A DNA stretch of 64,000 nt from Onthophagus taurus. Taxonomy: Eukaryota > Arthropoda > Insecta > Coleoptera > Scarabaeidae. The notes beneath the pieces are model-generated. The model was not told the DNA's origin, made no database searches, and saw nothing but the letters and a program-made list of their open reading frames with translations. Positions within the stretch are counted from its first letter, which is position 1, and each line of letters opens with the position of its first letter. Position numbers and translations under genes: made by a program. Positions 3,001 through 46,690 of the stretch are shown in pieces. The stretch is taken from NCBI RefSeq assembly GCF_036711975.1, contig NC_091971.1, positions 3,169,501-3,233,500 on the forward strand, in the 5' to 3' direction.

Positions 3001-3100
3001 GAACACTAAGATAGCACAAAACTTGGATTGATAGGTTTTTATTACAACAAGAAGTAACTTCTCCCAAGAATCTACTCTGGTGTTAACATTCCAGAGTTGA
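1..3100. other. Gene-free stretch with CpG-rich patches
   Basis: I see no convincing coding region here. GC- and CpG-rich patches, for example about 400-530, 700-830 and 2060-2500, alternate with AT-rich DNA. The short open frames overlap on both strands and match no family I know. No tRNA, terminal inverted repeat or tandem array was recognised. Unique regulatory DNA is possible but not shown. Confidence 0.5.
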
Positions 3101-3109
3101 TAGTCTAGA

Positions 3110-3160
3110 GTTAAGTGGAACTAATACTAAACCTAGAACTAGAAACATTTGGGTTTATAC
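3110..3160. repeat. Fragment of the palindromic CTAG-rich repeat
   Basis: A single half-arm of the repeat family described at 8780, with the characteristic run of CTAGAACTAGAAACATT followed by a GGGTTTA-like boundary. It is diverged and has no partner arm. Confidence 0.55.
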
Positions 3161-3931
3161 ACATGTCATGTTATACACACTTATGATAGTTTAATACACA
3201 TGTTTGTGTGCAGTATTTTACTTACAATTAGTATCATTTATCTTGAAAACGAGTGGTCGTAGACCATTTTATAAGCAGAACATTTTTTATGTATTTTTTT
3301 CCGTAGATTCTAATTTTGAGGTTAAAATAGTGAAAAGATCAAAGCAAAAAAAAATATGGGAAATAAATTGCGCCCCCTATCCCTTATTTCCGCAACTGCA
3401 CATTCCTTCTAATTTTTTATTCGATTATCGTATTCGCCCCGGAAAAATAGCTGGATATGCAAAATTTCGTGTTTCTAACCCTACTAGTTTTTGAAATAAT
3501 GAGAAATAACCTCATATTGAATGTCTTCTTCAAAGCGCTCTACCTCCCTTAGGAAGCATTTTAGGACACACTTTATATGAACTTTTCTTCATGATTTTTT
3601 ATGTAGAATCACACCTTTAAATATATGAACGCAATTTCCGGGCACCCTGTATTATGCATTTGAAAGGATTTAACGCTAAAGTATTCATGTAACTATGTAT
3701 TTTGAACATGATGAAAAAAAAATGTAAAAAAAATATATTGACGTTGTCTTTATGGCAAAAAATGTTATAAAAGACAAAAAACTTACACATTAATTGCTGA
3801 TTTATAAGGCCGTATTTATATTATGGGATGTATTAAGGGATATAAATGTATTTAAACAGGTTATGAGTCATACATGAAGGTTTCGGATCATTTGCACATT
3901 TTTGAAAAATACAGGTCCGTAATGACAAATT

Positions 3932-4050
3932 TGTCTAATGTTAGTTCTAGTGACAATGGTAGGTAGCGCTAGTTAGCATAAGAAATTATTTTTATTGAAC
4001 TAAAACTAGAACCAACACTAGACCTAGAACTAGAAAGATTCAGGTTAAGA
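3932..4050. repeat. Fragment of the palindromic CTAG-rich repeat with a linker
   Basis: It contains an arm end (TTAGTTCTAG), a linker ending TTTTTATTGAACTAAAACTAG, and a second arm through CTAGACCTAGAACTAGAAA. The linker matches those between hairpins in the large arrays, so this is a decayed piece of the same family. It lies about 75 bp left of the Tc1/mariner-like element. Confidence 0.65.
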
Positions 4051-5932: not shown

Positions 5933-8779
5933 CATCAATATACATTTCCAAAAATTTAGGTTGGTACGATTTTAGGGATATATGTTGTGGTTTTTAAATG
6001 TCATAATGACGTTTAAACGTTAAGATGACATTTGTATGTCAAAATTATTAAAAAAATCAAAAAAGGTTATAAATAGAGCAAGAAAAATAAAATATCGATA
6101 AGAAAGTTGGATGGAAAATGGAAAACTATAGCATTTATCAGAATGAAATAATGAACACCATTATTGCAAAATGATCTGCACAAAATGTAAAAATATTATC
6201 TTTTAAACGTCAACTTGACAATTAAACGTCAACATCGGTAAAGAAAGTAGAAATTCAAAAATTCAAAAATTTGTTTGAATTAGTTTTTAAACTAACTACT
6301 AAATTATGTAGTTTGTAAATGTTATTAGATTTCAAAACTTAATCGATTTCATTTTATGTTTTTAACAATTATTGTTTAATATTTAATGAAATATTGAAAA
6401 ATTTTAGAAAAAATTTCATATAACGAACTTTTGGCTATAACAAACATTCCCTTCCCCATATTAGTCCGTTACATCGAGGTTTTACTGTATACATATAGTA
6501 GATTTGGGAGAAGAAATTCTGATATTTTTAAGAAAAGATTTTTTGGGTGACTTATCCATCTCAATTTGCACCCGTAATCCTACACAACCATCCAATCGAA
6601 CGTTACAATTTTTCCGGATTAACCTTCTATACCCCCGGATCTCACACACACCAGCATCAGAATTCACCGCATCGAATTCAGGTGAACAGCTCTACCCACG
6701 GGCATTATAGTGCGCGATTTGGCGCAACATCTACGTAACCCCCTAAATAAATATACCCATCAATACGGGCTTAGGGCGTCGCTAATCTAAATAAATCGTT
6801 CATATTCAGATGGCGAAATGGGATCACCGATAACGCCTATATATTCTACCGCTATTTTAGCACCCTTTTCGGCTGGAGGATTTCGGAAGGGGGACGTCCG
6901 TCGCCGTGTGATCTTAACCCTTCTTCATCGTATTGTTAAGGAAATGTACGTTATCGGGACCCGGCTCGGTGTCTGAGTTTTAGGTCGGGTTCTAACGAAC
7001 TTATGCACTTAATAATATCCTATATACGTTAGCTAGGAATGTATATTCTTGGTACTTACTACCTGACTGACCCGTTTATCGACGATAACTATCGAGTGAA
7101 ATGTTATATTTTATTAATGGACTAAATTTAAATTTGTAATTTTTATGTAATAGTGATATGCATGGGAACAATATTTTTACATAAATCATGAAGTATTTTA
7201 TGTTTGTTTTGCCAAAAAAGATGAAGTGTTCAGTTATAACCGTTTTCTCCATCCATTTAAATCCTTCTTTCCCACATTCATCCCAGTATAAATACCTTTC
7301 CTAAGAGAACAAAGATTAGTGGTGTTTTTATCCCCCATCCCATGGGGACCCGGAACTAAGTAGATCGCCACATCATAAGTGACCGTTGACCCTCTCGACC
7401 GCTGATACCCGGTTGATCTAGTCTAGATGATGTGTTCTAAGAGCCTATTGTAAAGATTCATAAGGAAAGGAATCCCTCATGAAATGGGACTTCTCACCCC
7501 TTTTCCAAAGATGCTCGCAATTAGTCTTGGCTGGGTGATCTCATGTACTGTTGGGATCCTTGCTCAATTCTGCCCCCGGCTCTGTATTTCAACGTGTAGA
7601 AAGGACTGGGCACAAAAAATGAATATTCGTTGGCTCGAATGTCGGTATACACTTTTGTTAAGGATAATTAAGTCGAAGGATTAATCTCTCTTTCTCGTTG
7701 TGTCCCTTAGATTAAGGAAGAGAAAACCGTTAGGTGTACGAGAACTGAATGCCGGTGTCTTGCGGGTCGTAATAAGAAAAAAAGCCGTTTCTGCTTCCGT
7801 CTGTTTTCCCAGTTGTTTGTTCGAGGGAGTGATGTGTAATATAAACTTCAATTAATTGGTTAGGGGAAGACGAACACACTGAAAGAGCTGCTTTCGAATT
7901 AATGGAAACACTAAATTATTGCTGATTCTTCTTCTGTTTTAGTAAAAAAAATCCTTTCAAATAAATTGATTTCGTTATACCAATTGATTGTCGTCTTGTC
8001 CTTACAGGTAGCCACGTCATTTAATGTGGAGCCGATTAAAATCATCCCCTAACGAACACGAACATTAACATCCAGGTTGATGGGTCATTCGGTGCCACAA
8101 AGACACGGACGCCACTGAACCAGAACATTTACGCCCGGCAGTTTTTATCGCGGATTTTATGTGTGCGTACAGGGCCGTATAACCTAATAAATAAAAATTT
8201 CAATTACGCCGAGCACGTTTCACCCGAAGGGCTTAAGGGCGGCCAGTGAACAGGTCAGTGGGCGGCAGAAGATGCCCCCCAAAACGGTGGGCTGTTCGAA
8301 CGCCGGCGGCGGCACGCTGCGATGCGTGCTCCAAAAAATAAACACGGGCGTAACACGCGGTATACGACGTCATAAAAAAACTATTTTATGACGGTCAGCC
8401 GAGCATTAATCAGAGGTCACAGTCCACCTTTGCCGCCTCTTCCATATATCGACGACTGTCTTTAAGCGCCCCCGTTGGATTTATGGGGTAGTAAACTGGT
8501 TCAGGTATATTGCCAGTATAGGGGAAGTTAGATATTATGTAATTATTAATTATTTAATATAAATAAAACATATTACCTAATAAATAAGGAAAAATATTTT
8601 CACTGAAATAATCTCAAACAGCTCCCGCAAATAATTAACGAGATCTTTCTTGGTGTCTCATGGTTCATGCTTAGTTTCATTCCAATTAGCTTTAAGAAGC
8701 TATCTAATTTGGATTAGATTTAATCAATTCAAGCAATTTGGATTAATTGTTACTAATACCATATGATACCATATTGAAA
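5933..8779. other. Gene-free stretch with CpG-rich islands
   Basis: No gene is recognised. The stretch is AT-rich to about 6430, then CpG-rich patches occur near 6560-7000, 7340-7560 and 8030-8480, including a GCCGGCGGCGGCACG run near 8302. Overlapping short frames on both strands near 6500-6740 look like chance frames in such DNA. A pogo/Tigger-like terminus lies at about 6440-6487 and is listed separately. Confidence 0.5.
6440..6487 (-). mobile_element. Solitary pogo/Tigger-like terminus
   Basis: The sequence ends ACATCGAGGTTTTACTG followed by TA. Read on the minus strand it begins CAGTAAAACCTCGATGTAAC, which resembles pogo/Tigger terminal repeats. Related ends occur at 11865-11889 and 20827-20850. 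I found no matching opposite end nearby. Confidence 0.4.
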
Positions 8780-9470
8780 CAGCCTCTTAAACACGGCTAA
8801 ACACGAATGATTCTAATTTTAGGTCTAATGCTAATGCTACTTTTAGTTCAATAAAAATATACAACAATCTAATACTGAATAAAAATTAAAACTAGAACTA
8901 ACACTAGACCTAGAACTAGAAAGATTCAGGTTTAGCCGTGCGTCTTCAGACTAGTGTTAGTTCTAGTTTTATACTAGCACTATCACTAGAACTAACACAA
9001 AACCTGGAACTAGAATCATTGGGATTTATGCCGACTTGAGAGACGTGCTGCTAAATCAGAATGTTTTTAGTTTTCGGTCTAGTGTTAGTACTAGTTTTGC
9101 ACTAGAACTAACACAAGAGCTAGAACTAGAATCATTCGAGTTTAGCCGTCTTGAGAGACGTGCGGCTAAACCCGAATGATTCTAGTTCTAGGTCTAGTGT
9201 TAGCTCTAGTTTTACGCTGGCACTGTTACTAGAACTAACGCAATACCAAGAACTAGAATCATTCAGGTTTAGCTGTCTTAATAGACGTACAGCTAAACTC
9301 GAATGTTTTTAGTTGTAGGTATAGTGTTAGTTCTAGTTTTACACTAGCGCTGTTTCTCGGACTAACACTAGAGCTAGAACAAGAATCAGTTGGGTTTAGC
9401 CGTCTTGAGAGACGTGCGGCTAAACCCAAATGATTCTAGTTCTAGGTCTAGTGCTAGTTAGCATAAGAGA
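8780..9470. repeat. Palindromic CTAG-rich tandem array (array 1)
   Basis: About five to six hairpin units in tandem. Each arm is a run of 6-7-bp CTAG-containing sub-repeats (ACTAGAACTAACACTAGACC), then CTAGAA, an ATTCGGGTTTAGCC-like step and a short core. Cores lie near 8936, 9042, 9148, 9265 and 9392. The last four share one orientation, GTCTTGAGAGACGTGC or a close variant. The second arm is the reverse complement of the first, so each unit could fold into a stem of roughly 40-50 bp. A LINE 3' end interrupts the array at 9471, and repeat sequence resumes at about 10823. There is no coding potential and I know no named family. Confidence 0.85.
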
Positions 9471-10820
9471 TAATAATAATAATAATAATAATAATGTTTA
9501 TTAACCCATAGCACCATTATAAACCCCAATAACAAAATACTTAAAAACTAAAATAAAACCAAAATGAAATGCCATGAGTTAAAAAGGACCACGTCAGCAT
9601 TCCCAGTGGGTCAGCTGTTTTTCATTGGTCCTTTTTCTACATTTTGTATAAATAAACTTAAACTTCATGACGGCAAACGGAAATAGAAAGACTAGTTGTT
9701 ACCAAAAACTTAAAATTAATACCAATTATACATAATAGTAAGACTAGCTTTCTAGTAAATAAGAAGAGCTAAGACAAGGAAAGGAGAAGAAACACGAAAA
9801 AACAATAAAAGAAAGAAAAAGAGAAAAAACAACAACAAAAAAAAAAAAATTGATTCATATGTCATCACAATTCCGCTCATTCAATAACTCAGACCTATAT
9901 ATCACCCTGAAAACCCGCTCAGATTCCTGCAAGACCGAAAGTGGACAGTTATTCAACAAATTAGGCACACAATACGTGAAAGATCTTTTAAAAATTTCCA
10001 GTCGATGCTGGGGTATTGTTAACGTATGTCTGTGCCTAATATTAATATTATGAACGTCTGTTCGAAATTGAATTTTGTTGTATAAATATGGTGGACATTT
10101 GGTAGTCAGAACCTTATGGTAGAGGCAAGCAGAGTGAAGGGCCCTACGACGTGACATATTCAACCAGCCCACCCATTTTAAGGTGTATGAGATACTCGCA
10201 TATTTCCTAATGCCATAAATAAAACGTAAGCACGCATTCTGAACTCTTTAAATTCTTACCTTGTGAATATTATCAATACAAGGGCCATATAATACATCAC
10301 CGTAATTAAAGATCGAGAGAACCAGGGCGTCACACAAGCGTATCCGCAGTTGCTGTTCCAATAAATGCCTACTATTATAGAGCAATTTTAACGCTGCATA
10401 TGCACGACGCAGTAGACTACCAATGTACGAGTCAAATCTAAGTTTACTGTCAATAATGATACCCAAATTCCTTGCACTTTCAGCAACCTGCAAAACATCA
10501 GAGTCAATCTTGAAGCTCAACCCATCCCTGACTTCGTCCAAAACACCCCGGCTCCCAAAGACCATCACCGATGACTTAGATGGATTTATCCTTAAGCTGT
10601 GCTCATTAGCAGTATTGACCAAGGCCTTCAAGTCACCATTAATATTACTTTCAGCCACAGCTAGATTTGATGTTGGAAAAGTGTAGTATAATTGAATATC
10701 ATCAGCATACATGTGCGCAGTACAGTGCTTTACAGCCAAACACAGTTGGGAAGTATAAATTGAAAACAGAATTGGGCCAAGAATAGAACCCTGCGGTTCT
10801 ATTCTTATATAGATCACTAT
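9471..10820 (-). mobile_element. 5'-truncated non-LTR retrotransposon (Jockey/CR1-like LINE)
   Basis: Read on the minus strand, this is the 3' end of a LINE: a reverse-transcriptase C-terminal half, a 3' UTR of about 370 bp, and a (TTA)n tail of 24 bp at 9471-9494. The 5' end is lost near 10815-10820, inside the RT domain, as expected for incomplete target-primed reverse transcription. It sits inside the palindromic array: arm sequence lies to the left (CTAGTGCTAGTTAGCATAAG) and a linker with TATTTTTATTG to the right. I could not define a clear target-site duplication. The clade is inferred from the YADD context and C-terminal style. Confidence 0.85.
9855..10814 (-). pseudogene. Reverse transcriptase C-terminal fragment of the LINE
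   Basis: Minus-strand frame with PQGSILGPILF (RT motif), then MYADDIQLYY containing the catalytic YADD box, then INPSKSS and LGIIID, all typical of LINE-encoded reverse transcriptase. The following region (LRRAYAALKLLYNSRHLL, then WLNMSRRRALHSACLYHKVL) is the usual C-terminal extension. One in-frame TAA near 10248, where the family would carry a sense codon, splits an otherwise open frame of about 320 codons that ends at 9855. A C-to-T change of CAA is the simplest explanation. The endonuclease and N-terminal RT regions are missing, so it is not functional. Confidence 0.85.
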
Positions 10821-10822
10821 GT

Positions 10823-11074
10823 TGCATATTTTTATTGCACTAAAACTAGAACTAACACTACACCTACAACTAGAAAGTATCTAGAATGTTTCTAGTTCTA
10901 GGTCTAATGTTAGTTCTAGTTTTAGCACTATTACTAGAAGTAACAAAAGACCTAGAACTACAATCATTCCGGTTTAGCCGTCTTGAGAGACGTGCGGCTA
11001 AATTCGAATGTTTCTAGTTTTCGGTCTTCTGTTAGTACTGCTTTACATGTTATTTAGCATTAGATTGTGGTATA
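10823..11074. repeat. Palindromic CTAG-rich array, continuation of array 1
   Basis: A linker (TTTTTATTGCACTAAAACTAG), a collapsed hairpin at about 10850-10920, and a complete unit with its core near 10977 (GTCTTGAGAGACGTGC) and flanking GTTTAGCC/GGCTAAA steps. The distal linker (TTAGCATTAGATTGTGG) is interrupted at a TA by the Tigger-like element at 11075. Confidence 0.8.
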
Positions 11075-11766
11075 CAGTGAAATTCCTCTAACTCGAACTT
11101 CTATATTTCGAATTATCCTCTAAGTCAAATAATTTTCGTAAGCTCAAGCCTTTGACTAGGTTTCAAATGTGTTTTTATCTCTCTAAGTCGAATTTCACTA
11201 ACTCGAATTTCTCTGTAACTCGAACTGAACAACTATGGAATTTCTTCAACTTTTACTTCTATAAGTCAAATTTACGAAAGAATAAAATATTCGAATCTGT
11301 TCTGTAAGTAATTTTAACTACAGAATGAAACTACATAGACTCAGGCTCAGAAACTACAGACTCTTGAACGAGAACAAACCTAATTCTTATTGTTTCAGAA
11401 TCAGATGAGGATGATGATAATCTTGAAAAGGAAATACTTATCGCTGTGCCTACATTTGATGAAGCTTATTCTTCTCTTAGAAAGCTCCGACATTTTTGTA
11501 TTATCAAGAGAGAATGTTCCAGATAATATTCATAATTCTTTACATTTAATAGAATATTTTTTCGACAAAGAGCTTTGTCCACTTTAAGCCAAAAGAAAAT
11601 TACGGATTACTTTAAAAAACTTGATTAATTTTCTACTTACAATACTATTAAGCTTTCTGTTTTAAATCTGAACTGAAATTCTACTAATTTTTCTCTGACT
11701 CCAATTCTCCATAATTCGAAGTTTTCTTCCGCTCCCTTAGTGATTCGAGTTAGAGGAATTTCACTA
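11075..11766 (+). mobile_element. Internally deleted pogo/Tigger-like transposon
   Basis: The left end reads CAGTGAAATTCCTCTAACTC and the right end (about 11744-11766) is its reverse complement except for the last base (A for G). TA flanks both ends at 11073-11074 and 11767-11768. The length is 692 bp. The interior keeps only a remnant of the C-terminal transposase region, including a frame ending QKKITDYFKKLD-stop near 11588-11626, typical of Tigger/jerky-type C-termini. The catalytic core is missing. Removing the element together with one TA rejoins a linker of the palindromic repeat, which shows the array was there first. Confidence 0.8.
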
Positions 11767-11830
11767 TATTTTTATTGAACGAAAAGTAGAACTAACACTA
11801 GACCTGGAACCAGAAACATTCCAATTTAGA
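11767..11830. repeat. Palindromic CTAG-rich repeat, right part of the interrupted linker
   Basis: TTTTTATTGAACGAAAAGTAG followed by an arm (AACTAACACTAGACC, then GAACCAGAAACATT). This is the continuation of the linker split by the Tigger-like insertion. Confidence 0.7.
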
Positions 11831-11864: not shown

Positions 11865-11889
11865 CGTCTGTTATATCGAGGTTTTACTG
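11865..11889 (-). mobile_element. Solitary pogo/Tigger-like terminus
   Basis: It ends TTATATCGAGGTTTTACTG followed by TA, the same terminus type as at 6440-6487. No opposite end was found nearby. Confidence 0.4.
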
Positions 11890-20826: not shown

Positions 20827-20850
20827 CAATAAAACCTCGATATAACAGAT
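20827..20850 (+). mobile_element. Solitary pogo/Tigger-like terminus
   Basis: TA followed by CAATAAAACCTCGATATAAC, differing by one base in the first ten from the terminus at 11865-11889. It lies just left of palindromic array 2, and no opposite end was identified. Confidence 0.35.
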
Positions 20851-21070
20851 TAATGCAATATAAATATATAACAATGTAGCGTTGAATAACAACTATAACT
20901 AGAGCTAACAATAGCACTAGAACAAATACTAGACCTAGAACTAGAAACATTCGCGTTTAGCCGTGCGTCTCTTAAGACGGCTAAACCCAAATGATTCTAG
21001 TTTTAGGTCTAGTATTAGTTCTACTTTTAGTTCAATAGAAATATACAACAATAGCATTAAAACTAACACT

Positions 21071-21296
21071 CTTCTGTTCTTATTCTGTTCTTTATTCTGT
21101 GCTCTTTATTCTCAAATTTACTTGGCTTTATTTTGTTGAGGTTCCAATGGAAGAACAGGAGCTTCGGCTTCCTGAATTGGCGCCTTGTGGTTTGTACCAA
21201 AAAAGAATTATTCATGTTTAATTTTCTTTTTTTTCTGCAATTTGTATTTTGTTTTTGGTACAATAAAGTGTATTATTATTATTATTATTATTATTA
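21071..21296 (+). mobile_element. Short LINE 3' end with (TTA)n tail
   Basis: A 226-bp insertion inside the palindromic array, flanked by a 7-bp target-site duplication TAACACT at 21064-21070 and 21297-21303. It ends in an AATAAAG-like signal followed by an (ATT)n run. The rest is 3' UTR-like DNA with no recognisable coding sequence, although fortuitous frames cross it. Severe 5' truncation of a non-LTR retrotransposon is the best explanation. I cannot tell whether it is the same family as the LINE at 9471. Confidence 0.7.
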
Positions 21297-21398
21297 TAAC
21301 ACTAGACCTAAAACTAGAAACATTCGGGTTTAGCTGTACGTCCCTTAAGACGGCTAAACTCAAATGATTCTAGTTCTAGATATAGTGTTAGTTGTAAT

Positions 21399-21664
21399 CT
21401 TTGATTATATATAATATGGATTGAGCTAACTGAATATATCTACTAACAAAAATGTTGCTCAAGGTGAATAGACGCAGATGGAAAGCGATAATGTGAAAGT
21501 GTAACAAAGATAGATATATTATATGTCAGTACGCTTCTATATCTATCTCACTTCTATCAGTACACCCATTATATGGCAGTACGCTTCTATGTCTATCTCG
21601 GTTCGATCACCTTGCTCAAGCTATCTCTCCAAATAAATCCAATCCATATTATATATAATCAAAG
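21399..21664. mobile_element. Small non-autonomous DNA element (MITE), hAT-like
   Basis: A 266-bp insertion bounded by a perfect inverted repeat of about 25 bp beginning CTTTGATTATATATAATATG, with an 8-bp target-site duplication GTTGTAAT at 21391-21398 and 21665-21672. The duplication fits the hAT preference (T at position 2, A at position 7). No coding region. The interior has repeated TATCTATCTC-like blocks and an inner inverted pair around TTGCTCAAG. It lies within the palindromic array, whose arms flank it on both sides. Confidence 0.8.
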
Positions 21665-22165
21665 GTTGTAATGCTAGTGCTAGTTCTTTTTTAGCTGTTA
21701 GTCAGCGTTAGATTGTTGTACATCTATTTTTTATTGAAGTAAAACTAGAACTAACATTAGACCTAAACCCGAATTTTTCTAGTTCTAGGTCTAGTGTTAG
21801 TTCTAGTTTTAATTGTCATTCAGTGTTAGATTGTTGTCTATTTTTATTGAGCTAAAAGTTGAACTAACACTAGACCTAGAACTAGAAACATTCGGGTTTA
21901 GCCACACGTCTCTCAAGACGGCTAAATCCGAATGATTCTAGTTTTAGGTCTTGTGTTAGTTCTAGTGATAGCGCAAGTGTAAAACTAGAACTAACACTAT
22001 ACCTAGAACTAGAATCATTCGGGTTTAGCCGTCTTGAGATACGTGCGGCTAAACCCAAATGATTCTAATTCTAGGTATAGTGTTAGTTCTAGTTTTACAC
22101 TTGCACTGCCACTAGAACTAACATTCGACCTAGACCTACAATTAGAAACATTTGAGAACTGTTTT

Positions 22166-23617
22166 GAGAAACGTACATTCGTAGTAAGTTTTTCTTTTTT
22201 ATTTTTAAATAGTTTCTTATTATGTTATTATGAGTTGACCTTATGTTACATAATTAAAATTCTAATCGTTGGTTGTGGTCGAGTTTTTATTATACTTCGG
22301 CAGCCAAAACATATTGTTTTACAAGGACGTCTACAGTATGCGTTCTTAAAAATAAAATTTTTTTCGTTACATTAAAAAAAAAATGTTACAAAAAGTAGGT
22401 ATATTTTTGCGTGTATATTTTAAGAATTCCCAGAACGGTATTACGACAATTATTTTTGTATCCCTTTTTCAAGAAAGTTTCCTTCCGCCCTTTCATAGTA
22501 AATATGGTTTCAAAGCAGGCACGTTTGCGTTGGTCTACGAAGAAGCCGAAAGCTACGTCGGCGAAACATCAAAGTATTCAAGGACGTCTGGAAATATTTA
22601 TTACAGCCAATAGTTTTTATAACGGCAATAAACCGCATTTCTGGGGCAGACGGCGCGTTCGGACAAAGCTAAACGAGATGATTATAGTGCTAGGTTATGG
22701 ATGAACCGCGGTCAGACTTAAGATCAAAGTTCGCGAGGACAAGTTTCGCCACTTCTCTAACAAAGGAAACATTTAATTGACTATTTATGCAAACAATATG
22801 CGTTCTCAAAACCGGCGGAATTCGCGTTTTATTTCACCGAACTCGCCCGTTCGATTCCATTAATTCCAATTTATTACTTTCTGTAAGTTTTAGCGATACA
22901 TATTTATGGAAATAGCGAGATTAATGACCCTGTTTTTAATTTTTAACATTATCGAGTTTCCAGGAAAAAGTTTTTTTAAAAATAAAAAGTCATTTAAAAA
23001 GTGCAATTTGTACCTGAGTTATTTAGTCATTTTATTTTGAGATGAACAGGTAGAAAAAACTTCGAATAAGTTTCAAAGTTATTGGATGAGGCAGTTTGGA
23101 GATTACGAAATCTTTCACACAATAAATAAACCTTATTTACATAATTTTTATATTAAGGATAAATTAATTGATTTTATTACTAAATTTTATTACCTCAAAT
23201 CATGATTTATTAATCTTTTGCAACTTTTCTATCCCTAAGCAAAATTTTTTTTTGAAATTGTATCTGATATAGATAGCTGGTCCAGATATTAAATATGCTA
23301 CATGAAGTGATCGTTGTAAGCTATCGAGAGTTGTTGCATTGCTAAGGATTTGGGGTTTTGATTGGAGAACTTTACAAATTCTTCCAAAGCTTTGAACATT
23401 TTTAGAAACACCAGAAAATGTTTAGAAACTCCTGGACATCTTTCGAAATCTTTTACTTAAAAGTTCTCTGAATTTTCTTTTAGCTTGAAATTTCTGGACA
23501 TTGTTGCCCAACCCAACCCAACCCAACTTTATAAATTCTTGCATATTATAATAGATGGTTGCTATGACCATATTCTTTCTGTTATCAAATACATATTACA
23601 AATTTTGACTTACTATA
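22166..23617. other. Gene-free AT-rich stretch
   Basis: I see no supported gene. Overlapping frames at 22383-22704 lack recognisable domains. Poly-T and poly-A runs are common. A short telomere-like tract at 23507-23527 is listed separately. Confidence 0.45.
23507..23527 (-). repeat. Interstitial (TTGGG)n tract
   Basis: Four copies of CCCAA plus one base, equal to TTGGG on the minus strand. A similar tract in opposite orientation lies at 27091-27125. TTGGG has been reported as a variant of the insect telomere repeat in some lineages; these short tracts may instead be simple microsatellites. Confidence 0.6.
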
Positions 23618-30400: not shown

Positions 30401-30921
30401 GGCTCTTTCGCGTGTAGCGTTCATTCCTTCGCACGCATACAGACGCACGAGAAAACACGATAATCCAAGGGAACGGGGCCTTGTTCAAAAATGCAGCATC
30501 TAGCACCTCCGCTCACGTCTCCCCTCCTCTTAACAGAAGACGATCGGCCACTCGCTATTGGTCGGCACTCGGACAGGCGGACTCTCCGTCTCAAAACACG
30601 CACCTAACTGTGGACTCCCGAAATTCTGAGGAGGACCAGAGCCAGTCGATTCTTAGCCTCCAAGTGTTGTGTTGCTTGCTGTACTTGCACGACTTGCGTT
30701 TTTTTTAGAAAGATATTCTAGTGATTGCAAAAATTAACCGGCACAATTCCCTATAAAATCTGGTCGCTTCGAAACGACGAAAATTCTAAAAAGTGAATGA
30801 TCGTTATTATTTGTTTTTCAATGTACGAAAACAAATCGGGAATAATGGGCTAAACGCGGAGAACACGCGAGGACTTTTTTATTTTCTTTTGAGTTGGACC
30901 GAGTGACACTTTTATTTTGTG
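30401..30921 (+). promoter_or_regulatory. Probable promoter and 5' UTR of the zinc-finger gene
   Basis: A CpG-rich region directly upstream of the ATG at 30922, ending in AT-rich leader with several upstream ATGs (near 30798, 30821 and 30845). An in-frame TGA at 30904-30906 closes the frame before the start. I could not place the transcription start or a TATA box, so the extent is approximate. Confidence 0.4.
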
Positions 30922-35939: not shown

Positions 35940-38850
35940 TTATGGGAAAGTACAAATAGAAATTAAAAAATCATATCTGACGAACGAATTGAGATATGAC
36001 GATGTAATAAAATGCATGTTAAAGCTTATTTATTAGAGATTTAGTGTGCCATAAATAATTTCTTATTTTCCATAAACCTCGTTGTTATGATTGCTTAAAC
36101 TCAACTTTACATATTTTTTAAAAATAGAAATTTAAAAAATCATATCTCAAGAACAAATTGAGATATCATGATGAAAAAATAAACATTTTAAAGCATATTT
36201 ATTACAGATTTAGTGTACCATAAATAATTTCTTATTTTCCATAAACCTCGTTGCTATGATTTTTTAAATCAAATTCTGCACATTTTTCTATTATACACTG
36301 TCAAAAGAGAATTTTAAAAATCATATCTCAAAACCGAATTGAGATATAATGATGGAATAAAAAGCATATTAAACTATACAAAAAGTTCACTTTTTTATAG
36401 TAAAAAACCGCTTTTAGAAATATCTTTACGTTTCTCAAATATCAATTTTTAAAACCATTCGTTTTATATTTTATAAAGTGTTAATCTAAAAAATCATAAA
36501 AAATCGATTTCTTAAGATATCGTTTTGCAATTCTCAGAAAATATAGAAAAATGTCTCAGCTTTTTGATGAAAGAAACCGCTTCTTAAAATATCTTCAAGA
36601 TTTTGAGATATGAATTATTAATCACTCATGTATTTGATTTTTCATAATTAATCTTATTTCCTTTAAAAAAATTGATTTCTTAAGATATAGATTTACGACT
36701 CTCAGAGATTATACAAAAAAGTGTCGGCTTTTTGATGAAAGAAACCGCTTCTCGAAATATCTTTAACATTTTGAGATATTAATTTTTAAAAACCTTTAAT
36801 TTTTTACTTCTAAAAGAAATCTTAAATTCTCTAATCTAAAAAATCATAAAAAATCGATTTCTTAAGATATCGTTTTGCAATTCTCAGAAAATATATAAAA
36901 ATGTCTCAGCTTTTTGATGAAAGAAACCGCTTTTCAAAATATCTTCAAGATTTTGAGATATCAATTAATAAAATCATTAATGTATTTGATTTTTCATAAT
37001 TAATCTTATTTCCTTTAAAAAAATTGATTTCTTAAGATATAGATTTACGACTCTCAGAGATTATACAAAAAAGTGTCGGCTTTCTGATGAAAGAAACCGC
37101 TTCTCAAAATATCTTTAAGATTTTGAGAAATTAATTTTTCAAAACCTTTCATTTTTTACTTCTAAAAGAAATCTTAAATTCTCTAATCTAAAAAATCATA
37201 AAAAATCGGTTTCTTAAGATATCGTTTTGCAATTCTCAGAAAATATACAAAAATGTCTCAGCTTTTTGATGAAAGAAACCGCTTCTTAAAATATCTTCAA
37301 GATTTTGAGATATCACTTATTAAAATCATTAATGTATTTGATTTTTCATAATTAATCTTATTTTCTTTAAAAAAAAATGATTTCTTAAGATATAGATTTA
37401 CGACTCTCAGAGATTATACAAAAAAGTGTCGGCTTTCTGATGAAAGAAACCGCTTCTCAAAATATCTTTAAGATTTTGAGAAATTAATTTTTCAAAACCT
37501 TTCATTTTTTACTTCTAAAAGAAATCTTAAATTCTCTAATCTAAAAAATCATAAAAAATCGATTTCTTAAGATATCGTTTTGCAATTCTCAGAAAATATA
37601 CAAAAATGTCTCAGCTTTTTGATGAGAGAAACCGCTTCTTAAAATATCTTCAAGATTTTGAGATATCACTTATTAAAATCATTAATGTATTTGATTTTTC
37701 ATAATTAATCTTATTTTCTTTAAAAAAATTGATTTCTTAAGATATAGATTTACGCCTCAGAGATTATACAAAAAAGTGTCGGCTTTCTGATGAAAGAAAC
37801 CGCTTCTCAAAATATCTTTAAGATTTTGAGAAATTAATTTTTAAAAACCTTTCATTTTTTACTTCTAAACGAAATCTTAAATTCTCTAATCTAAAAAATC
37901 ATAAAAAATCGATTTCTTAAGATATCGTTTTGCAATTCTCAGAAAATATAGAAAAATGTCTCAGCTTTTTGATGAAAGAAACCGCTTCTTAAAATATCTT
38001 CAAGATTTTGAGATATGAATTATTAATCACTCATGTATTTGATTTTTCATAATTAATCTTATTTCCTTTAAAAAAATTGATTTCTTAAGATATAGATTTA
38101 CGACTCTCAGAGATTATACAAAAAAGTGTCGGCTTTTTGATGAAAGAAACCGCTTCTCGAAATATCTTTAACATTTTGAGATATTAATTTTTAAAAACCT
38201 TTAATTTTTTACTTCTAAAAGAAATCTTAAATTCTCTAATCTAAAAAATCATAAAAAATCGATTTCTTAAGATATCGTTTTGCAATTCTCAGAAAATATA
38301 GAAAAATGTCTCAGCTTTTTGATGAAAGAACCCGCTTCTTAAAATATCTTCAAGATTTTGAGATATGAATTATTAATCACTCATGTATTTGATTTTTCAT
38401 AATTAATCTTATTTCCTTTAAAAAAATTGATTTTTTAAGATATAGATTTACGACTCTCAGAGATTATACAAAAAAGTGTCGGCTTTCTGATGAAAGAAAC
38501 CGCTTCTCAAAATATCTTTAAGATTTTGAGAAATTAATTTTTCAAAACCTTTCATTTTTTACTTCTAAAAGAAATCTTAAATTCTCTAATCTAAAAAATC
38601 ATAAAAAATCGATTTCTTAAGATATCATTTTGCAATTCTCAGAAAGTATATAAAAATATCTCAGCTTTTTGACGAAAGAAACCGCTTCTTAAAATATCTT
38701 CAAGATTTTGAGATATCAATTAATAAATTCATTAATATATTTGACTTTTTATAATTAATCTTCGATCCTTTAAAAAATTGTAAAAAATGGATTTCTTAAG
38801 ATATAGATTTAAAACTCTCATATATTATACAAAAATGTCTCAGCTTTTTC
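35940..38850. repeat. Satellite: ~350-bp dimeric tandem repeat
   Basis: Seven dimer copies begin at AAATCGATTT (or AAATCGGTTT) at about 36501, 36851, 37203, 37557, 37907, 38257 and 38607, spaced 350-354 bp. Each dimer has two diverged halves of roughly 175 bp that both start GATTTCTTAAGATAT and contain GATGAAAGAAACCGCTTCT. Three older, more diverged single units (motif TCATATCT near 35971, 36140 and 36321) precede the array. AT-rich and non-coding. Copies are closely similar, which indicates recent homogenisation. The array fills much of the space between the two zinc-finger paralogues. Confidence 0.9.
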
Positions 38851-41800
38851 ACCAAAGAAACCGCGCAAAAAATTCTTTTCGGAGATATCTTCTTTTGGCA
38901 ACTCGAGGGATTATAAATTTCCACTCCAATCTAAAATTTAATCAAGGTAATGAATGCGAAATCATAAAAAAAGACCCAGGTACACAAGTTGCTAAAACCA
39001 CTTGTCCCCCTTAATAAAACACATCATAACCACATGTATGTAATGTATCATGTTTCAGAAGGGTTTACTGATGACCATTGGATGACCGTCGTCATTGGGG
39101 TAGGTTGTAAATGGTCAGTGTTAGGGTAGGTCATAGGGTCAGGTGCGGAAGGTCCGGAGGTCGACCAAAAGAGTTGTTCGGTCGTGTGGTGCACCTGCAG
39201 AAAGGCACTTCGCCATCCGGGGAATGGCATGGAGAAAAGAAAAAAGCTTCGGTCGATCGTTGCATCTCGCCAAAAACAACCATCCGCATTCACCCATCGA
39301 AGGTGCTTCGTTGCACCCTTTGAGAATCACAGCGACTCTTTCCCACGAGATTTTTCAACTGTGTAGATGCGCATCGAGGGCGACAATGGGAGCAATAGAA
39401 CGCAAAGTTCCTATTGCAAGTCACGAACCGAAGCAGATGTTTCTTGTTTACACTGTAAATTTGGTGAAGAAATGAAAATGGGTTTTGAAAATTTTAAGTG
39501 ATAAATTTTGATTAAATATAGATTGATTAATAATCCAACCTGATCCACTTGATCTAATCGGAAGGGGTCGCACAATTAATTTTCGAACCAGGTACTACTT
39601 CCTGTTGCATCTGCCCGATGCATCCGGATTAGACGTCATCTGTTTATCCTTCCTAGGCTAACCCTTAAACCGCTCCAAACCTGGAGCAATGTTTTATGCA
39701 AATCACGTTCCCATTCACATGCAAAGCTCGCCGGCATTCAATCTCTCAATAACTGGCCTATACAAGTCTCCGAGCTTCAATAACTTCTCATCAAGTCGAC
39801 TTCTTTAGTTATACACCAAAGACGGTATACATATTTCAAGACGTATACCACAAAAAATTATTGGATTTTAGTTTTCAATTTTCATTAATAATAAAAATGA
39901 AAAAACAATCAATTTTATTTGAAATGAAGAACATCCGATTTCAATTGAGAACACGTCGAGTTGAAAGTTCTTAGATCAGTTTTAAAGATCTATTGTCATC
40001 GCCTTTAGGAAGCTTTAGGACTCCCAGGTGTCTCACAGCCGGGTACCTTTTATTTGTTAGCTTGGGGAGGTAAAAGAATGAAATCTGTTTGTGCAAGTGG
40101 CGTTTGATGGGTGAAAAGATAAAAAAAAAGATTTTGAAAACTTTACAAATAAAAACTAAAATAAATCACAATTTACACTTAAATTAATATTCTATTCGAG
40201 TATGATGGACCAACACACACAGAGCTTCGTCGTTGACGGAGATTTAATAAAAATCCAATTGTTCGATCACTTTCGGTTGGACGATTTTTAATATCAGCCC
40301 GGTGCTCCAGACGAGCTGAGTTCAACGTTGATGTGTTTGCAAGCGATCCAACCTCTTCGACGCCGCTTAAGTGTGCGTGCAACCCCGTCCCGTTCATATA
40401 CAGGGTGTTGTACGTGTGTGTAGGTTTAGGTCGGTGTGTGTGGGAACGGATTCTTCTTCTCGTTAGTGCGAGTGCGTTGTGCACATCTCTTTTTTCACGT
40501 TTGGTATCGTCTCTTCGTAAGAAAGAAAGAATAGAAGGAGAGATGAGGCTTTTTGAAATTGATTTTGCGCGAGTGCAAGAAGGATGGAGGCTTCGACTAT
40601 ATGGGATTGTGGCATGAAACCACCTGGTGAGGCTATGCTGTCTTCGCATAATGGTTAGGTAATCCTGAGCAGTACCCCGCTGCCACCCTCATTATTCCGA
40701 AGGCTGCGGAGAATGGGCGATGTTAAGCACAATTATGAAAAGATTTTCTAATTATACTTTATTTTTATTGATACTGAGATTTTCTTAAATCTTTATTCAC
40801 ATCTTTTCCAGTAAACTTAAACAATATCATATTACCCAAGGTCGTGCACACTTCGTTACAGAAACGGAAAAATCCAAACTGAAAAAACTCGTCGCATTAA
40901 CAGAGAAATCGAATGACCGTAAATATTATGTTAACCCACATTAATCCAAACGTTCGCCCGTTTTTTTTTCTTTCGTTCTCTTTTTCGACTCAGTTTCCTC
41001 ACAGCATCGGATCGCGGTCTGTTTGCGTTTCTCACAGAGCGCGCCCCACGAAAAGCTCTTTTTTCGCTCAGAAAACGGATCCATCGCGGAATGCCTTTTT
41101 TTGGTTAGAAACCCCTTAAAAGCGTATAGAATGCGCGCTATATACCCGATTCCGCAGCGTCAACGAACCCCTTATTAGAAAAGACGAAATTTTTATTGTC
41201 GTCGCAAGTGAACCGGAGAGAACTAGCAACCCCTTAAGGAAATAAAGGTTAAAGGAAAGGTGTCGAACGCGGAAGAGGAGATAGCTGCGGCGAGATTCCG
41301 GTAAATGGGGTGCAGGAAGACACAAGGGTTGATCGTGGGAAAAGGCAAGGGGTTGCAGCATCCCTCGCATTGCCCAAAACAGCTGCACGACGTGTCGTAG
41401 CCGATCAACTTGTTCTTGTTCGTTCACCGTCCGATGCTCTGCCCGGTTAATTAAAAGACAAGGATGCCAGAAGAGGAGGTAGCATTGATTTCTCAGATAA
41501 TGGCCAGTTCGGATTGTCCAACGGAATTGGCTATTAAAATAAGGGGGAAGGATGTTACGACGCAAGGTATTTAATGCATACCAGATTAAGGCTGCACAGA
41601 TTGAAAATTTATCTACAGGGATGAAAAAGTACTACCTTATCTTTTTTTTTTTCAATTACCATATGGTTCAGGAACTTATAATCAAATCATTATAATAATG
41701 TACTTTCAAAATTAGGTTTTTATGTAATCAATTTAATAAAAAAATTATTATGTTTAACTTAATCAAAAATAAAATTGTCAACTTTAAAAACATTAAAATT

Positions 41801-42037: not shown

Positions 42038-43145
42038 GTTGTTATGCAGCGTTAGATTGTTGTATATTTTTCATGGAACTAAAACTAGAACTAACACTAG
42101 ATTTAGAACTAGAAACATTGGGGTTAGCTGTACGTCTCTTAAGACGGCTGAACCCCAATGTTTCTAGTTCAAAATCTAGTGCTAGTTGTAGTGCTAAAAC
42201 AAAAACTAGAACTAACACTAGACCTAGAACTAGAGTCATTCGGGTTTAGCCGCACGTCTCTCAAGACGGCTAACACCGAATGATTCTTGTTCTAGGTCTA
42301 GTGTTAGTTCTAGTAACAGTGCCAGCGTAAAACTAGAGCTAACACTAGAACTAGAACTAGAATCGTTCGGGTTTAGCCGTCTTGAGAGATGTGCGGCTAA
42401 ACCCGAATGATTCTAGTTCTAGGTCTAGTGTTAGTTCTAGTAACAGTGCCAGCGTAAAACTAGAGCTAACACTAGAACTAGAACTAGAATCGTTCGGGTT
42501 TAGCCGCACGTCTCTCAAGACGGCTAACCCCGAATGATTCTTGTTCTAGGTCTAGTGTTAGTTCTAGTAACAGTGCCAGCGTAAAACTAGAACTAACACT
42601 AGACCTAGAACTAGAGTCATTCGGGTTTAGCCGCACGTCTCTCAAGACGGCTAACCCCGAATGATTCTTGTTCTAAGTCTAGTGTTAGTTCTAGTAACAG
42701 TGCCAGCCTAAAACTAGAGCTAACACTAGAACTAGAACTAGAATCGTTCGGGTTTAGCCGCACGTCTCTCAAGACGGCTAAACCCGAATGATTCTAGTTC
42801 TAGTTCTTATGCTAGTTCTAATGATAGTGCTAGTGTAAAACTAGAACTAGAAACATTTGGGTTTAGCTGTACGTCTCTTAAGACGGCTAAACCCGAATGA
42901 TTCTAGTTTTAGGTATAGTGTTAATTCTAATGTTAGTGCTAGTTCTTGTTTTAGCTGTTATTCGGCGTTAAATTGTTGTACTTCTATTTTTCATGGAAAT
43001 AAAACTAGAACTAACACTAGACCTAGAACCAGAAAGTTTCGGCTTTAGCCGTCTTCTAGTTCTAGGTATAGTGTTAGTTCTAGTTTTAATTGTTATTCAA
43101 TGCTAATTTATTGTATATTTTTATCGAATTAAAACTGGAATTAGT
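42038..43145. repeat. Palindromic CTAG-rich tandem array (array 3), 127-bp period
   Basis: The largest and best-preserved array of the family. Hairpin cores lie near 42127, 42246, 42374, 42502, 42628, 42755 and 42866, plus a collapsed unit near 43033. The linker TAGTAACAGTGCCAGC recurs at 42311, 42438, 42565 and 42692, exactly 127 bp apart. Each unit is a CTAG-rich arm, GGGTTTAGCC, core, GGCTAAACCC, reverse-complement arm. The core reads GCACGTCTCTCAAGACGGC in most units but is inverted at 42374. Longer linkers (GTTAGATTGTTGTA and variants) mark both edges. No coding potential. Confidence 0.9.
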
Positions 43146-43542: not shown

Positions 43543-45690
43543 TTATTGATTTTTAACGTAATTTTTCGGTTTAAGATGTTTTTGTATTTTCAAATGCGTA
43601 TCACCATGTTTAATCATATGATCTTTTCTGATAAACCCCTTTCCGCACAACCCGCAACTAAACGGTTTTTTCCCGGTGTGAAGACACATATGTCTCCTAA
43701 GATCAGTTTTGTGGTTGAATTGTTTCGGACATTGTTCGCATTTGTGTGGTTTTTCCCCCCCGTGTTTGGCTTTATGTTCCAGATGTTGTTGTTCGCAAGA
43801 AAATCTTTTTCCACAACGTACGCATTTATACGGTTTATCTCCGCAATGAAATGTTTTATTGTGTTGCGTTAAATAACAAGATTTATTAAAAACCTTATCA
43901 CAATCAAAACATTTATGCAACGGTTGCGGTTTTACAATATTCGACGTTGAAGAAATTTGTGGATTACTATTTTCAACGTCGGGTATATCGTTCGAAGTTT
44001 CCGGCGAAGAACAATAAACGTTATATTTTAATTCTGAATCGATGGGGGTGTTGTTAACAATTAAGTTGTTGTTGTTGCTTGAGGATGAGATTGGAACGAT
44101 ATCGCCGTCGGTTGATGTTGAATCCGGGGGGGCTATCATTGTGTATCTTCTCGTTTCTTCGATTTCCTCTGGCTTAATTGGTTGATAACACGGAGGTTGT
44201 TGTTGATTATAACTTGATAAATCGTATGATTGATAATTTTGATCTTGACTCATATCGCCGTAATAAGGAACTTGATTATATCGTTGAATTTGAGAGAAAC
44301 TTGGGAGTGGTTGGGAATTATCAGTTTCTTCGGTAATAGTAGTGAGGTCGTTGACTACTAGTACCATTGAATTGTTGGGGATATTCTCGTCTGGGTGCAT
44401 TGGGTAATAAGGGGAATTCATGGGGGGTAACATATGGTGCTGGAAACCATTGTTGATGGTATTGTTGATGGTGTTGAAGGTATTGTGGGTGGGTTGGATA
44501 TGCATTTGATTGGTGATTGAAAGCAGACCCCTCGATTCCATAACTGAGGGGTCTGCCTGTACGTTTGGGGGATCGTCATAATTTTGTTGATTCATCGTTT
44601 GAAGTGGTACTAAACTAGGGAGTTCGTATTGTTCACTTGGTGGTGATTCGATTCTTTCAACATCCTCCTCCGGGCTATGTAAAGGTATTTGGGTATCCGC
44701 ACGATTTTGGGTTGCTTTTGGATGATGATGAACGCTGATGGGAAGATTGGCTGGATCTGGTAAACCGCTTGTTTTAACAGCATTTTTATGCAAAGTCGTG
44801 TTATAATGTCGTTTTAAATGACCAGAACTAGTAAACCATTTTTTACAAGATGTGCAATTATAATTTTTTGGTTTTCTAGAATCATTTGATTTCCAATTAT
44901 TTTTAGCTGATGATGGAGGTTGATTAACAACGGGAGTTGCGGTCGATGTTGTTGTTTCGATGCTAAATCCTTGTGATGGGAAATTTTGGGGCGTTTCTTC
45001 GGGGTAATTTCGATAATTAGGAGAAAAAATTCTTTGATTATTTATCGGATTACCGTCGGGTTCCCATCTTTGCTCGTTTGGACTAAACATGGGCGGATTT
45101 TGATTTTCGTTCGGTTGATTCCATTGATTCATCAATTGGTTGGGTTGAAGTTGTTGTGGTTGTTGACGAATATTTTCTTCTTCGGGCAAAACTTGATGCA
45201 CTTTATACGAATCTAAATCTAATATTTCAGTTTCTGTTTTTATTATCTCTCCTCCAGACAACATATTGTAATTATGATAGTTTGTTACGTTACCCAAAGG
45301 TGTTGTTGATTGCTGACAATTGTTTACGTGTTCCGTTATTTGATCCATTGAGTTACAAATAAATCCGCATTTTTCGCATTGTTTTGAGTTAGGCGAATTG
45401 GGTAAATACGCCCCATTATTTTGGGGTTGTTCCGAATTTGGGCGTTCGTACGGATGATAACGATACGAATTAATTTTACTCACATTTTCTTGATTGTACG
45501 GGTTAAAATTGTTTTCGCTTTGATACCGCTCCGTATAAAATTGTTGTGAGTATTCTTCGGGTGGTTGCGGTTCAGTTTTAACCCGGTTTAGTTGATAATC
45601 CATTGTGTTTTGTTGGTTTAGATACGTGGAGGAATCTGAATAACCCGACTGGTTGGTAATCGCTTCATTTTCGTAATCAGTGTTCTTCAT
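43543..45690 (-). CDS. C2H2 zinc-finger protein, six fingers, intronless paralogue (715 aa)
   Basis: A probable nuclear DNA-binding regulator and paralogue of the gene at 30922. Fingers: 105-125 (C105, C108, H121, C125: the last ligand is Cys rather than His), 279-301 (C279, C282, H295, H301), and a four-finger array at 594-699 with linkers GDKPYK, GEKPHK and GKKPFS. The array is nearly identical in its CFDCDKVFNKSCYLTQH and KQFNHKTDLRRHMCLH segments to the other gene. The start ATG at 45690 is firm: an in-frame TAA lies only 9 nt upstream. Its first residues (MKNT) align with residue 87 of the paralogue, so the N-terminal finger is absent. Long Gln/Asn-rich linkers carry motifs such as VKTEPQ and IKTE. 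Codons are more AT-rich than in the other copy. Confidence 0.93.
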   Translation of the reverse strand: MKNTDYENEAITNQSGYSDSSTYLNQQNTMDYQLNRVKTEPQPPEEYSQQFYTERYQSENNFNPYNQENVSKINSYRYHPYERPNSEQPQNNGAYLPNSPNSKQCEKCGFICNSMDQITEHVNNCQQSTTPLGNVTNYHNYNMLSGGEIIKTETEILDLDSYKVHQVLPEEENIRQQPQQLQPNQLMNQWNQPNENQNPPMFSPNEQRWEPDGNPINNQRIFSPNYRNYPEETPQNFPSQGFSIETTTSTATPVVNQPPSSAKNNWKSNDSRKPKNYNCTSCKKWFTSSGHLKRHYNTTLHKNAVKTSGLPDPANLPISVHHHPKATQNRADTQIPLHSPEEDVERIESPPSEQYELPSLVPLQTMNQQNYDDPPNVQADPSVMESRGLLSITNQMHIQPTHNTFNTINNTINNGFQHHMLPPMNSPYYPMHPDENIPNNSMVLVVNDLTTITEETDNSQPLPSFSQIQRYNQVPYYGDMSQDQNYQSYDLSSYNQQQPPCYQPIKPEEIEETRRYTMIAPPDSTSTDGDIVPISSSSNNNNLIVNNTPIDSELKYNVYCSSPETSNDIPDVENSNPQISSTSNIVKPQPLHKCFDCDKVFNKSCYLTQHNKTFHCGDKPYKCVRCGKRFSCEQQHLEHKAKHGGEKPHKCEQCPKQFNHKTDLRRHMCLHTGKKPFSCGLCGKGFIRKDHMIKHGDTHLKIQKHLKPKNYVKNQ

Positions 45691-46690
45691 TATACATTAT
45701 AAAACACACACGACGTAAAGTAACACGCGATTATCACAAAATAAAATTAAATTCTTCGTGTATCATCCCCGAGGTTATCTAAACTAAACAACGTTTCCGA
45801 AAACACGGACCGAAATCAGGACCGGTTTTTTCGCCTGGCGAACTAGACCCTGCACTTGGCGGTTAAAATGAAACTGACCTGGAGTTCGAAAAATTCAGCA
45901 ATCCCTTATGTTGGGGGTGCAAAGTTGGCCTGTACAAGTGCGGACCAATAGCAAATAGCCAAAGGTCTTTTATTAGGGTATTTCTAGGAACGCAAGAAAG
46001 GAAAAGTTGCTAAGTACCTAGCAGGGGTGTCTTTAGAAACCACCCACCTAAAAGGGGATTTTTAAAATCTGTACGACAGATGAAAAACAAAAAATAAATA
46101 AAAAAATTCGTTCGCTTTTTTTTCTAGATAAAAAATAAAATGTTTCTAGATATTAAAAATCAAATTTGAAATATTTCGTGAATTTCGGAGTATGATTTCG
46201 TGGTAATGGGAAAAAAGAAGCTATTTGGGCCATTTTAACGGCAACCTGTTGCTGGTGACGGGTATCACAAAAAATGTATAAATGAGGTGGAGTTTTTGCG
46301 AGAACAAGCGTTGAATTTTGGGGAGGGTTAGCGATAACAGACGGGGATGTAAGCTTAATAAACACCCTTACTGCAACTTTACACATATGTAAAAAGTTAA
46401 AATTCAAATATCACATTAAAACTTTATTTACTCACTTTTATTAAAGAATAATCTAACTTAAATTTTGATAAATTTAAATTGAGTTTATTTATTAAACCAG
46501 CCCAACTTTATTTCTTAAAGATAAAGAGCGATTTATATCTTAATGTTTAAACTAGAAAAACCACCAAATGATTATTGAAGAAAAAACTATAATCCCAGTC
46601 AATCACTTTGGGTTCAGAGAGAATCACTTAACTATTGATCAGATTAACAAGATCACAGATATAATTGAAAACTCGATTAAAGAAAGTTTG
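45691..46690. other. Upstream region of the minus-strand zinc-finger gene
   Basis: Probable promoter and 5' UTR in the first few hundred bases (moderate CpG content at 45700-46020), then AT-rich DNA. No sequence resembling the paralogue's missing N-terminal finger was found on either strand here. A short minus-strand frame at 46153-46407 has no recognisable domain. Confidence 0.4.

Follow-up and report, generated by a model that had tools for sequence, protein, structure and literature searches.

The focal array is located at positions 42038..43145 of the window, which is the whole 64,000-nucleotide stretch of Onthophagus taurus DNA analyzed here. A C2H2 zinc-finger open frame is located next to it on the minus strand (43543-45696), with its stop codon ~400 bp from the array edge. 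A second C2H2 zinc-finger open frame is located on the plus strand (30907-33636); the finger arrays of the two frames are very similar by eye, and the frames are probably paralogues in opposite orientations. Repeat searches and core positions resolved the focal array into 7 hairpin units and a coreless remnant, and five of the ~7 palindromic units are in strict 127-bp register. Specifically, Tandem Repeats Finder (TRF) gave a period of 127 with 6.1 copies at 42080-42849, and a direct-repeat search gave five copies of 202 nt with spacings of 127, 127, 127 and 127 bp. The cores started at 42117, 42239, 42366, 42493, 42620, 42747 and 42856, so that the core-to-core steps were 122, 127 (four times) and 109 bp. 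The TRF result, the direct repeats and the core steps confirmed the tandem array with a 127-bp period that had been proposed in the initial annotation. The linker TAGTAACAGTGCCAGC, which had been described there as recurring at 127-bp steps four times, starts at 42311, 42438, 42565 and 42692; the spacing is exactly 127 bp as described, but the four copies make three steps.

The loop at the hairpin center is asymmetric, and its orientation (A or B) could thus be read for each unit. The core of unit 1 was located at 42117..42158 by the core and loop scan. Inverted-repeat searches and loop scans, with folding in addition for units 2 and 3, placed unit 2 at 42205..42314, unit 3 at 42332..42441, unit 4 at 42459..42568, unit 5 at 42586..42695, unit 6 at 42708..42827 and unit 7 at 42836..42943, the last being 109 bp after unit 6. 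The 48-nt arms of units 2, 3 and 5 are separated by 14 nt and are 92%, 94% and 92% complementary, respectively, and the 53-nt arms of unit 6 are 85% complementary. Units 1, 2 and 4 to 7 have loop orientation A. In unit 3, the loop is reversed (B), and the orientation of the flanking spacers is unchanged. A hairpin remnant without the central core was found at 43000..43088 by reading and repeat search. The repeat search also located copies of a long-spacer module at 42039..42071 (plus strand), 42955-42987 and 43090-43122; this module also adjoins transposon ends at several other loci.

Folding was applied to two units, with 200 shuffles each. Unit 3 (110 nt) folded as DNA gave -49.6 kcal/mol, whereas its shuffles averaged -10.05 (z -16.5), and 0 of the 200 shuffles equaled it. 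Unit 2 folded as RNA gave -76 kcal/mol (z -15), and again 0 of 200 shuffles were as good. The hairpins of the focal array are therefore good, but not perfect: they had been called perfect-looking, and the two folded units beat all shuffles, while arms with 85-94% complementarity fall short of perfection. No terminal inverted repeat was recognizable at either edge of the focal array with up to 6 substitutions, the nearest one in the window being ~21 kb off. Because no ends are visible, we read the array as a truncated or solo copy of a palindromic satellite that is dispersed in the genome.

Distribution of the Palindromic Family

As had been stated initially, the family is dispersed within the window, where nine blocks of related sequence add up to 3,164 of the 64,000 bp. 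The block scan found two small family fragments (3098-3167 and 3933-4049, within 3098..4049) and, together with TRF or reading, further arrays. The second array, at 8784..9459, also has a 127-bp period (TRF, 2.8 copies at 9101-9459); the third is located at 10813..11829, the fourth at 20850..21065 and the fifth at 21281..22176. The end scan detected terminal inverted repeats on the minus strand at 6465..6487 and 11867..11889, each with 1 mismatch to CAGTAAAACCTCGATATAACGGA and followed by TA. A terminal inverted repeat on the plus strand at 20827..20849, with 2 mismatches and TA before it, adjoins the fourth array, which lies directly inside it. The third array is interrupted by a nested transposon (~11075-11768) with CAGTGAAATTCCTCTAACTCGAA-type ends, located at a TA within the long spacer. 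The fifth is interrupted by a nested MITE (~21400-21665) that has TCTTTGATTATATATAATATGG-type ends and a TTGTAA duplication and lies within an array unit; related sequence is present in another locus (L030).

Repeats of other kinds are also present in the window. A satellite-like array of another sort at 57559-60751 has a period of 88/176 bp, ~36 copies of the shorter period and a GC-rich CCTCGGCCGCAAGCGACCTCGG segment, and an AT-rich tandem array at 36482-38864 has periods of 182 and 350 bp, with 95% matches at the longer period. In addition, an open 550-aa frame on the plus strand (53053-54705) combines a zinc finger of the Spin-doc type with a DUF4371 match that is below threshold; we take this frame to be hAT-transposase-like.

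We then turn to the genome (290.8 Mb, 33 contigs). It gave 134 matches to 7tm_6, an insect-restricted family of odorant receptors, versus none in 14 control genomes, as befits an insect. When up to 3 mismatches were allowed, the 36-nt core matched 5,809 places in forward and 5,826 in reverse orientation (11,635 in total), and the reversed control matched 0. The true number of cores is higher, because part of the recognized units fall outside the mismatch limit: 11 of 15 units in the window, 176 of 205 in the array-centered loci and 34 of 50 in the end-centered loci were within it. The window is a rich stretch for cores of this family, with a density of ~172 per Mb versus ~40 per Mb in the genome. 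Exact core patterns gave 0 matches in IMG/VR viral contigs and 0 matches in GTDB genome contigs. As a separate observation on the genome, there is practically no TTAGG telomere repeat: (TTAGG)6 matched a single interior place, where two matches overlap, and its reversed control gave 10.

The array-centered loci (n = 20) were picked from the best matches, out of ~29 clusters counted by eye. Spacings other than 127 bp are common in the loci: among neighboring units with a spacing of 95-150 bp (n = 184), 87 were spaced at 127 bp, 40 at 121, 17 at 131 and 14 at 115. A consensus built on 256 units (226 distinct) is ~110 nt long and consists of two 47-nt arms, ACTAGAACTAACAC(A/T)AGACCTAGAACTAGAATCATTCGGGTTTAGCC, around a 16-nt asymmetric loop, GTCTTGAGAGACGTGC. 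Units diverge from it by 9.9% on average; note that inclusion in the unit set required a core with up to 3 substitutions per side, so that core conservation is inflated. The spacers between units are either short or long; the long spacer, TCAATAAAAATATACAACAATCTAACGCTGAATAACAA, had 667 + 726 = 1,393 genome matches with up to 3 mismatches (control 0). The palindromic satellite is real and abundant, and we take it to be old.

Arrays inside Transposon Ends

Some arrays are bordered by TACAGTAAAACCTCGATATAACGGA or a near copy of it. The terminal repeat CAGTAAAACCTCGATATAACGGA, preceded by TA, had 690 + 701 = 1,391 genome matches with up to 2 mismatches, and its control had 0. An end-centered sample of 20 loci with the exact 23-nt end was drawn from 100 listed places of the 1,391. 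In 16 of these 20 loci an array of at least 30 bp was present within 250 bp inside the end, and in 0 of 20 was one present within 250 bp outside it. One outer flank is common to 9 of the 20 exact-end loci, and these nine ends therefore probably represent one event that was then amplified by a second carrier repeat. Among the loci with distinct flanks, an array was found in 8 of 11. The exact-end loci without an array are L032, L042, L045 and L048, of which L042 is among the nine with the common flank.

Five elements have inverted end pairs, each end being 0-4 mismatches from the query end. The pairs in L033 (3,395 bp), L037 (4,275 bp), L039 (3,307 bp) and L035 (780 bp) carry TA at both sides, and that in L040 (4,503 bp) carries TA at one side and CA at the other. 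Note that the TA at the searched end formed part of the query and is hence uninformative; the test is the partner end, which was not used in the search and carries TA in four of the five elements and CA in the fifth. L033, of which 2,700 bp is array, also pairs with a poorer end 140 bp further (6 mismatches, no TA), and the nearer end was used. L033 and L037 have arrays toward each of their ends; long inverted repeats are indistinguishable from arrays there because the units themselves are palindromic. At several loci, CAGT-ended, TA-flanked DNA elements are thus filled by the satellite in their subterminal and internal portions.

The palindromic satellite is also present in a second, different repeat. 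This repeat encloses an array-bearing end in L029, L034, L043, L047 and others, and 9 of the 20 exact ends are inside it; in L047 it has an end like CAGTGAATTTCACTTAAGATGCAA. When the arrays were taken as the starting point, an end was found within 250 bp in 4 of the 20 array-centered loci (L009, L015, L018 and L027) and the second-carrier motif in 6 (L010, L013, L015, L020, L021 and L025). Either of them was present in 9 of 20 loci, or in 11 of 20 when L016 and L023, whose flanks matched by BLAST, were added. The remaining 9 loci have neither an end nor the second carrier, and the focal array is of the same sort. L017 and L022 have a third flank in common (78-79%). Solo arrays may be decayed elements, as proposed for MITE-derived satellites (PMC12628747), or may have spread otherwise.

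Affinity of the Carrier Elements

The TA and the CAGT ends place the carriers in the Tc1/mariner class, and they are probably non-autonomous transposons of the pogo/Tigger type, a label that denotes resemblance only, because none of the examined DDE_1 loci showed these ends around a transposase. DDE_1 (pogo/Tigger) transposases gave at least 150 matches in the genome (150 of 150 scored, of 1,691 candidates). Two DDE_1 elements have TA-flanked ends starting with CAGTAGAGCCCCGATTATCC and CAGTAGGGCCCCGACATTCA, the second pair having 4 mismatches in 20, and these ends are identical to the array-carrier end at 13 and 12 of 20 positions, respectively. The DDE_1 elements in L051, L052 and L055 have ends of different sequence. 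Array-carrier ends were found on both sides of a DDE_1 transposase in 0 of the 11 loci examined (six loci and five 3'-side stretches). In L053, a 5-mismatch version of the end is located ~2.4 kb downstream of the DDE_1 stretch, and exact ends are present further off in L052 and L053. A search with the terminal 98 bp (window positions 6390-6487) gave at least 40 scored places of 463 first-look candidates, and, by eye, no scored place had a listed DDE_1 match in the few kb around it.

Arm Divergence and Loop Orientation

For the comparison of arms, 257 units with the 42-nt core were collected and 18 with an arm divergence above 0.4 were dropped, leaving 239. The two arms differ by 12.7% on average over these 239 units; the 42-nt arms are perfect in 2 units and have up to 2 mismatches in 33. 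In 154 pairs of neighboring units, the mean divergence was 9.4% and 9.8% for same-side arms, compared with 11.9% between left and right arm within a unit; arms between loci diverged by 15%. The intra-unit divergence was larger than the left-left divergence in 96 of the 154 pairs, smaller in 37 and equal in 21. The lower divergence of same-side arms indicates that the arrays are homogenized lengthwise and that the palindrome is for the most part inherited. The same values (11.9% within units versus 9.4% and 9.8% for same-side neighbors) led us to reject correction between the arms as the principal force keeping the palindromes good.

Arm pairing was 86.3%, versus 85.2% (sd 0.13) when the right-hand letters were re-dealt in shuffles that ignore relatedness, and double changes numbered 171, versus 104 (sd 8.6) in shuffles that likewise ignore relatedness. 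Much of the double-change excess apparently comes from position 17, where G-C and T-A versions coexist. The two excesses point to some arm-to-arm homogenization or exchange, subfamily structure or weak constraint, and the excess in pairing, ~one percentage point, is too small for claiming selection on the hairpin. The initial argument that long palindromes are unstable, and that a preserved array of them is thus unusual, is weakened by these data, because the arms are imperfect (12.7% diverged, 2/239 perfect), the pairing excess is this small and the copies number in the thousands.

The loop orientation could be classified in 23 loci that have at least one unit between agreeing spacers: both orientations were present in 6, only the commoner one in 11 and only the other in 6. 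The loci with both orientations are L013, L021, L022, L024, L028 and the window, and a single unit is flipped in L013, L022, L028 and the window. In L024, the loop is flipped while the outer arms retain their side-specific letters, and the flipped-loop units have a left-arm variant in common. Many independent loop flips in L024 were therefore rejected, since the common variant fits one or two flips followed by amplification. By hand tally, 35 of 172 classified neighbors show a flip between adjacent units; these are not counted as events because the flipped units of L024 share the variant. Inversion of the hairpin center would be the natural reading of the two loop orientations.

Discussion

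We consider it likely that the array is a copy of an old palindromic satellite, that the carriers of this satellite are non-autonomous transposons of the Tc1/mariner class (probably pogo/Tigger-type), and that it has been copied onto at least one other carrier. Under this explanation, a pogo/Tigger-type transposase of the Tc1/mariner class would have moved the carrier elements in trans. The arrays would have been lengthened and shortened through unequal exchange or replication slippage, as suggested by the finding that same-side arms of neighbors resemble each other more closely than a unit's left and right arms do. Since both loop orientations occur between spacers of constant orientation, the loop may occasionally have been inverted when the hairpin recombined or was processed. 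Solo arrays, the focal one among them, would result where the transposon ends were lost. No host function of the palindromic satellite is implied. A further idea, possible but less probable than not, is that the palindromic unit is a portable module that several transposon carriers, unrelated to each other, have acquired, and that the arrays record germ-line processing of hairpins or cruciforms; the loop would have been inverted more than once while the outer arms and spacers kept their orientation, in line with the 6 of 23 loci that have both loop orientations.

Among other explanations, the palindromic unit could spread by itself as a satellite, e.g., through extrachromosomal circles or hairpin template switching, with transposons as only frequent neighbors or hosts. 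This would account for the 9 of 20 array-centered loci with neither an end nor the second carrier near the array, for the presence of the array in the second carrier repeat, for the third common flank of L017 and L022, and for the array edges, which are variable by eye. However, arrays are found inside versus outside the ends in 16 versus 0 of 20 loci, and in 8 of 11 loci with distinct flanks, and arrays occur within paired elements that have TA at each side, so that we judge spread of this kind to be unlikely. Palindromes and tandem repeats are difficult for assembly, but the copies come from many contigs and differ in their flanks, other transposons are cleanly inserted in the arrays (11075-11768 and ~21400-21665) and the units differ in sequence; we give an assembly artefact practically no credence.

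Tandem hairpins are a known form of loci for endogenous small interfering RNAs (endo-siRNAs) in Drosophila (hp-CG4068), and a hairpin-RNA locus producing such RNAs would agree with the strong RNA hairpin of the one unit folded (-76 kcal/mol, z -15) and with the small excess over shuffles in arm pairing and double changes. This origin is nevertheless highly improbable in view of at least 11,635 dispersed cores, an arm-pairing excess of ~one percentage point, and Rfam matches (33 listed) that were all under gathering scores. The same Rfam result led us to reject a microRNA family. Helitrons and Helentrons are not known to have terminal inverted repeats or a target duplication, whereas inverted ends and TA on both sides are present here. 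Most of L033 consists of repeats between inverted ends, which resembles a foldback (Mutator-like) element, and satellites inside both foldback and Helitron elements are described (PMC12628747, PMC4079207). On the other hand, the duplication is TA, versus 8-10 bp in the foldback element Tetris (PMC4079207), and a foldback or Helitron-derived element is very doubtful. The initial suggestion of a foldback transposon or a cruciform-forming satellite came close, in that the family is a palindromic satellite and many of its arrays are inside inverted-repeat transposons; nothing was found in relation to the replication-linked structure that was also suggested.

A satellite carried by Tc1/mariner-class transposons, which we favor, has relatives in the literature. 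Satellites born within MITEs are described in Xenopus, namely Xstir and miDNA4, of which miDNA4 belongs to Tc1/mariner (PMC12628747, PMC9659126). miDNA4 of Xenopus tropicalis is, like the carriers here, a non-autonomous Tc1/mariner element with an internal satellite that is single or arrayed and variable in copy number, and its arrays may later lose their ends (PMC12628747, PMC9659126). Its monomer is not described there as a full-length palindrome, whereas here the whole 110-nt monomer is palindromic and its loop occurs both ways; the presence in a second carrier also goes beyond miDNA4 as described. Within the limits of the present evidence, the element here works as miDNA4 does. Xstir similarly exists as a MITE, a tandem array and a composite of both, but the mechanism proposed for it joins two nearby elements, whereas the monomer here is internal and has its own spacers (PMC12628747).

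Tetris, a foldback element of Drosophila virilis, is also non-autonomous, its internal tandem repeats (TIR-220) seed satellite arrays, and its autonomous partner was not found; it differs in its 8-10-bp duplications and in repeats located in long terminal inverted repeats, compared with the TA and palindromic monomers here (PMC4079207). Galileo, of the P superfamily in Drosophila, shares inverted ends, internal repeats and rearranged copies, but is described as having a P-element transposase and inverted repeats that are long and repetitive internally, unlike the short CAGT-type ends at TA here (PMC3573991). In bivalves, a palindrome was noted close to the repeat junction of a MITE (PMC5139131).

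In the open-licence literature, judged on titles and abstract openings, nothing resembling the palindromic family was found. The initial remark that no named family has this structure thus holds for the exact sequence, within the open-licence literature searched, sequence strings included, but not for the general kind, as the satellite-carrying MITE is already known; the wholly palindromic monomer, the two-way loop and the second carrier are what is distinctive. Satellites are known to originate inside miniature transposons, but a fully palindromic monomer ought to be prone to deletion and inversion. A dispersed satellite can explain a striking array that seems unique in one window, and thousands of dispersed copies with an asymmetric loop would allow hairpin inversions and array-length changes to be counted in a natural genome.
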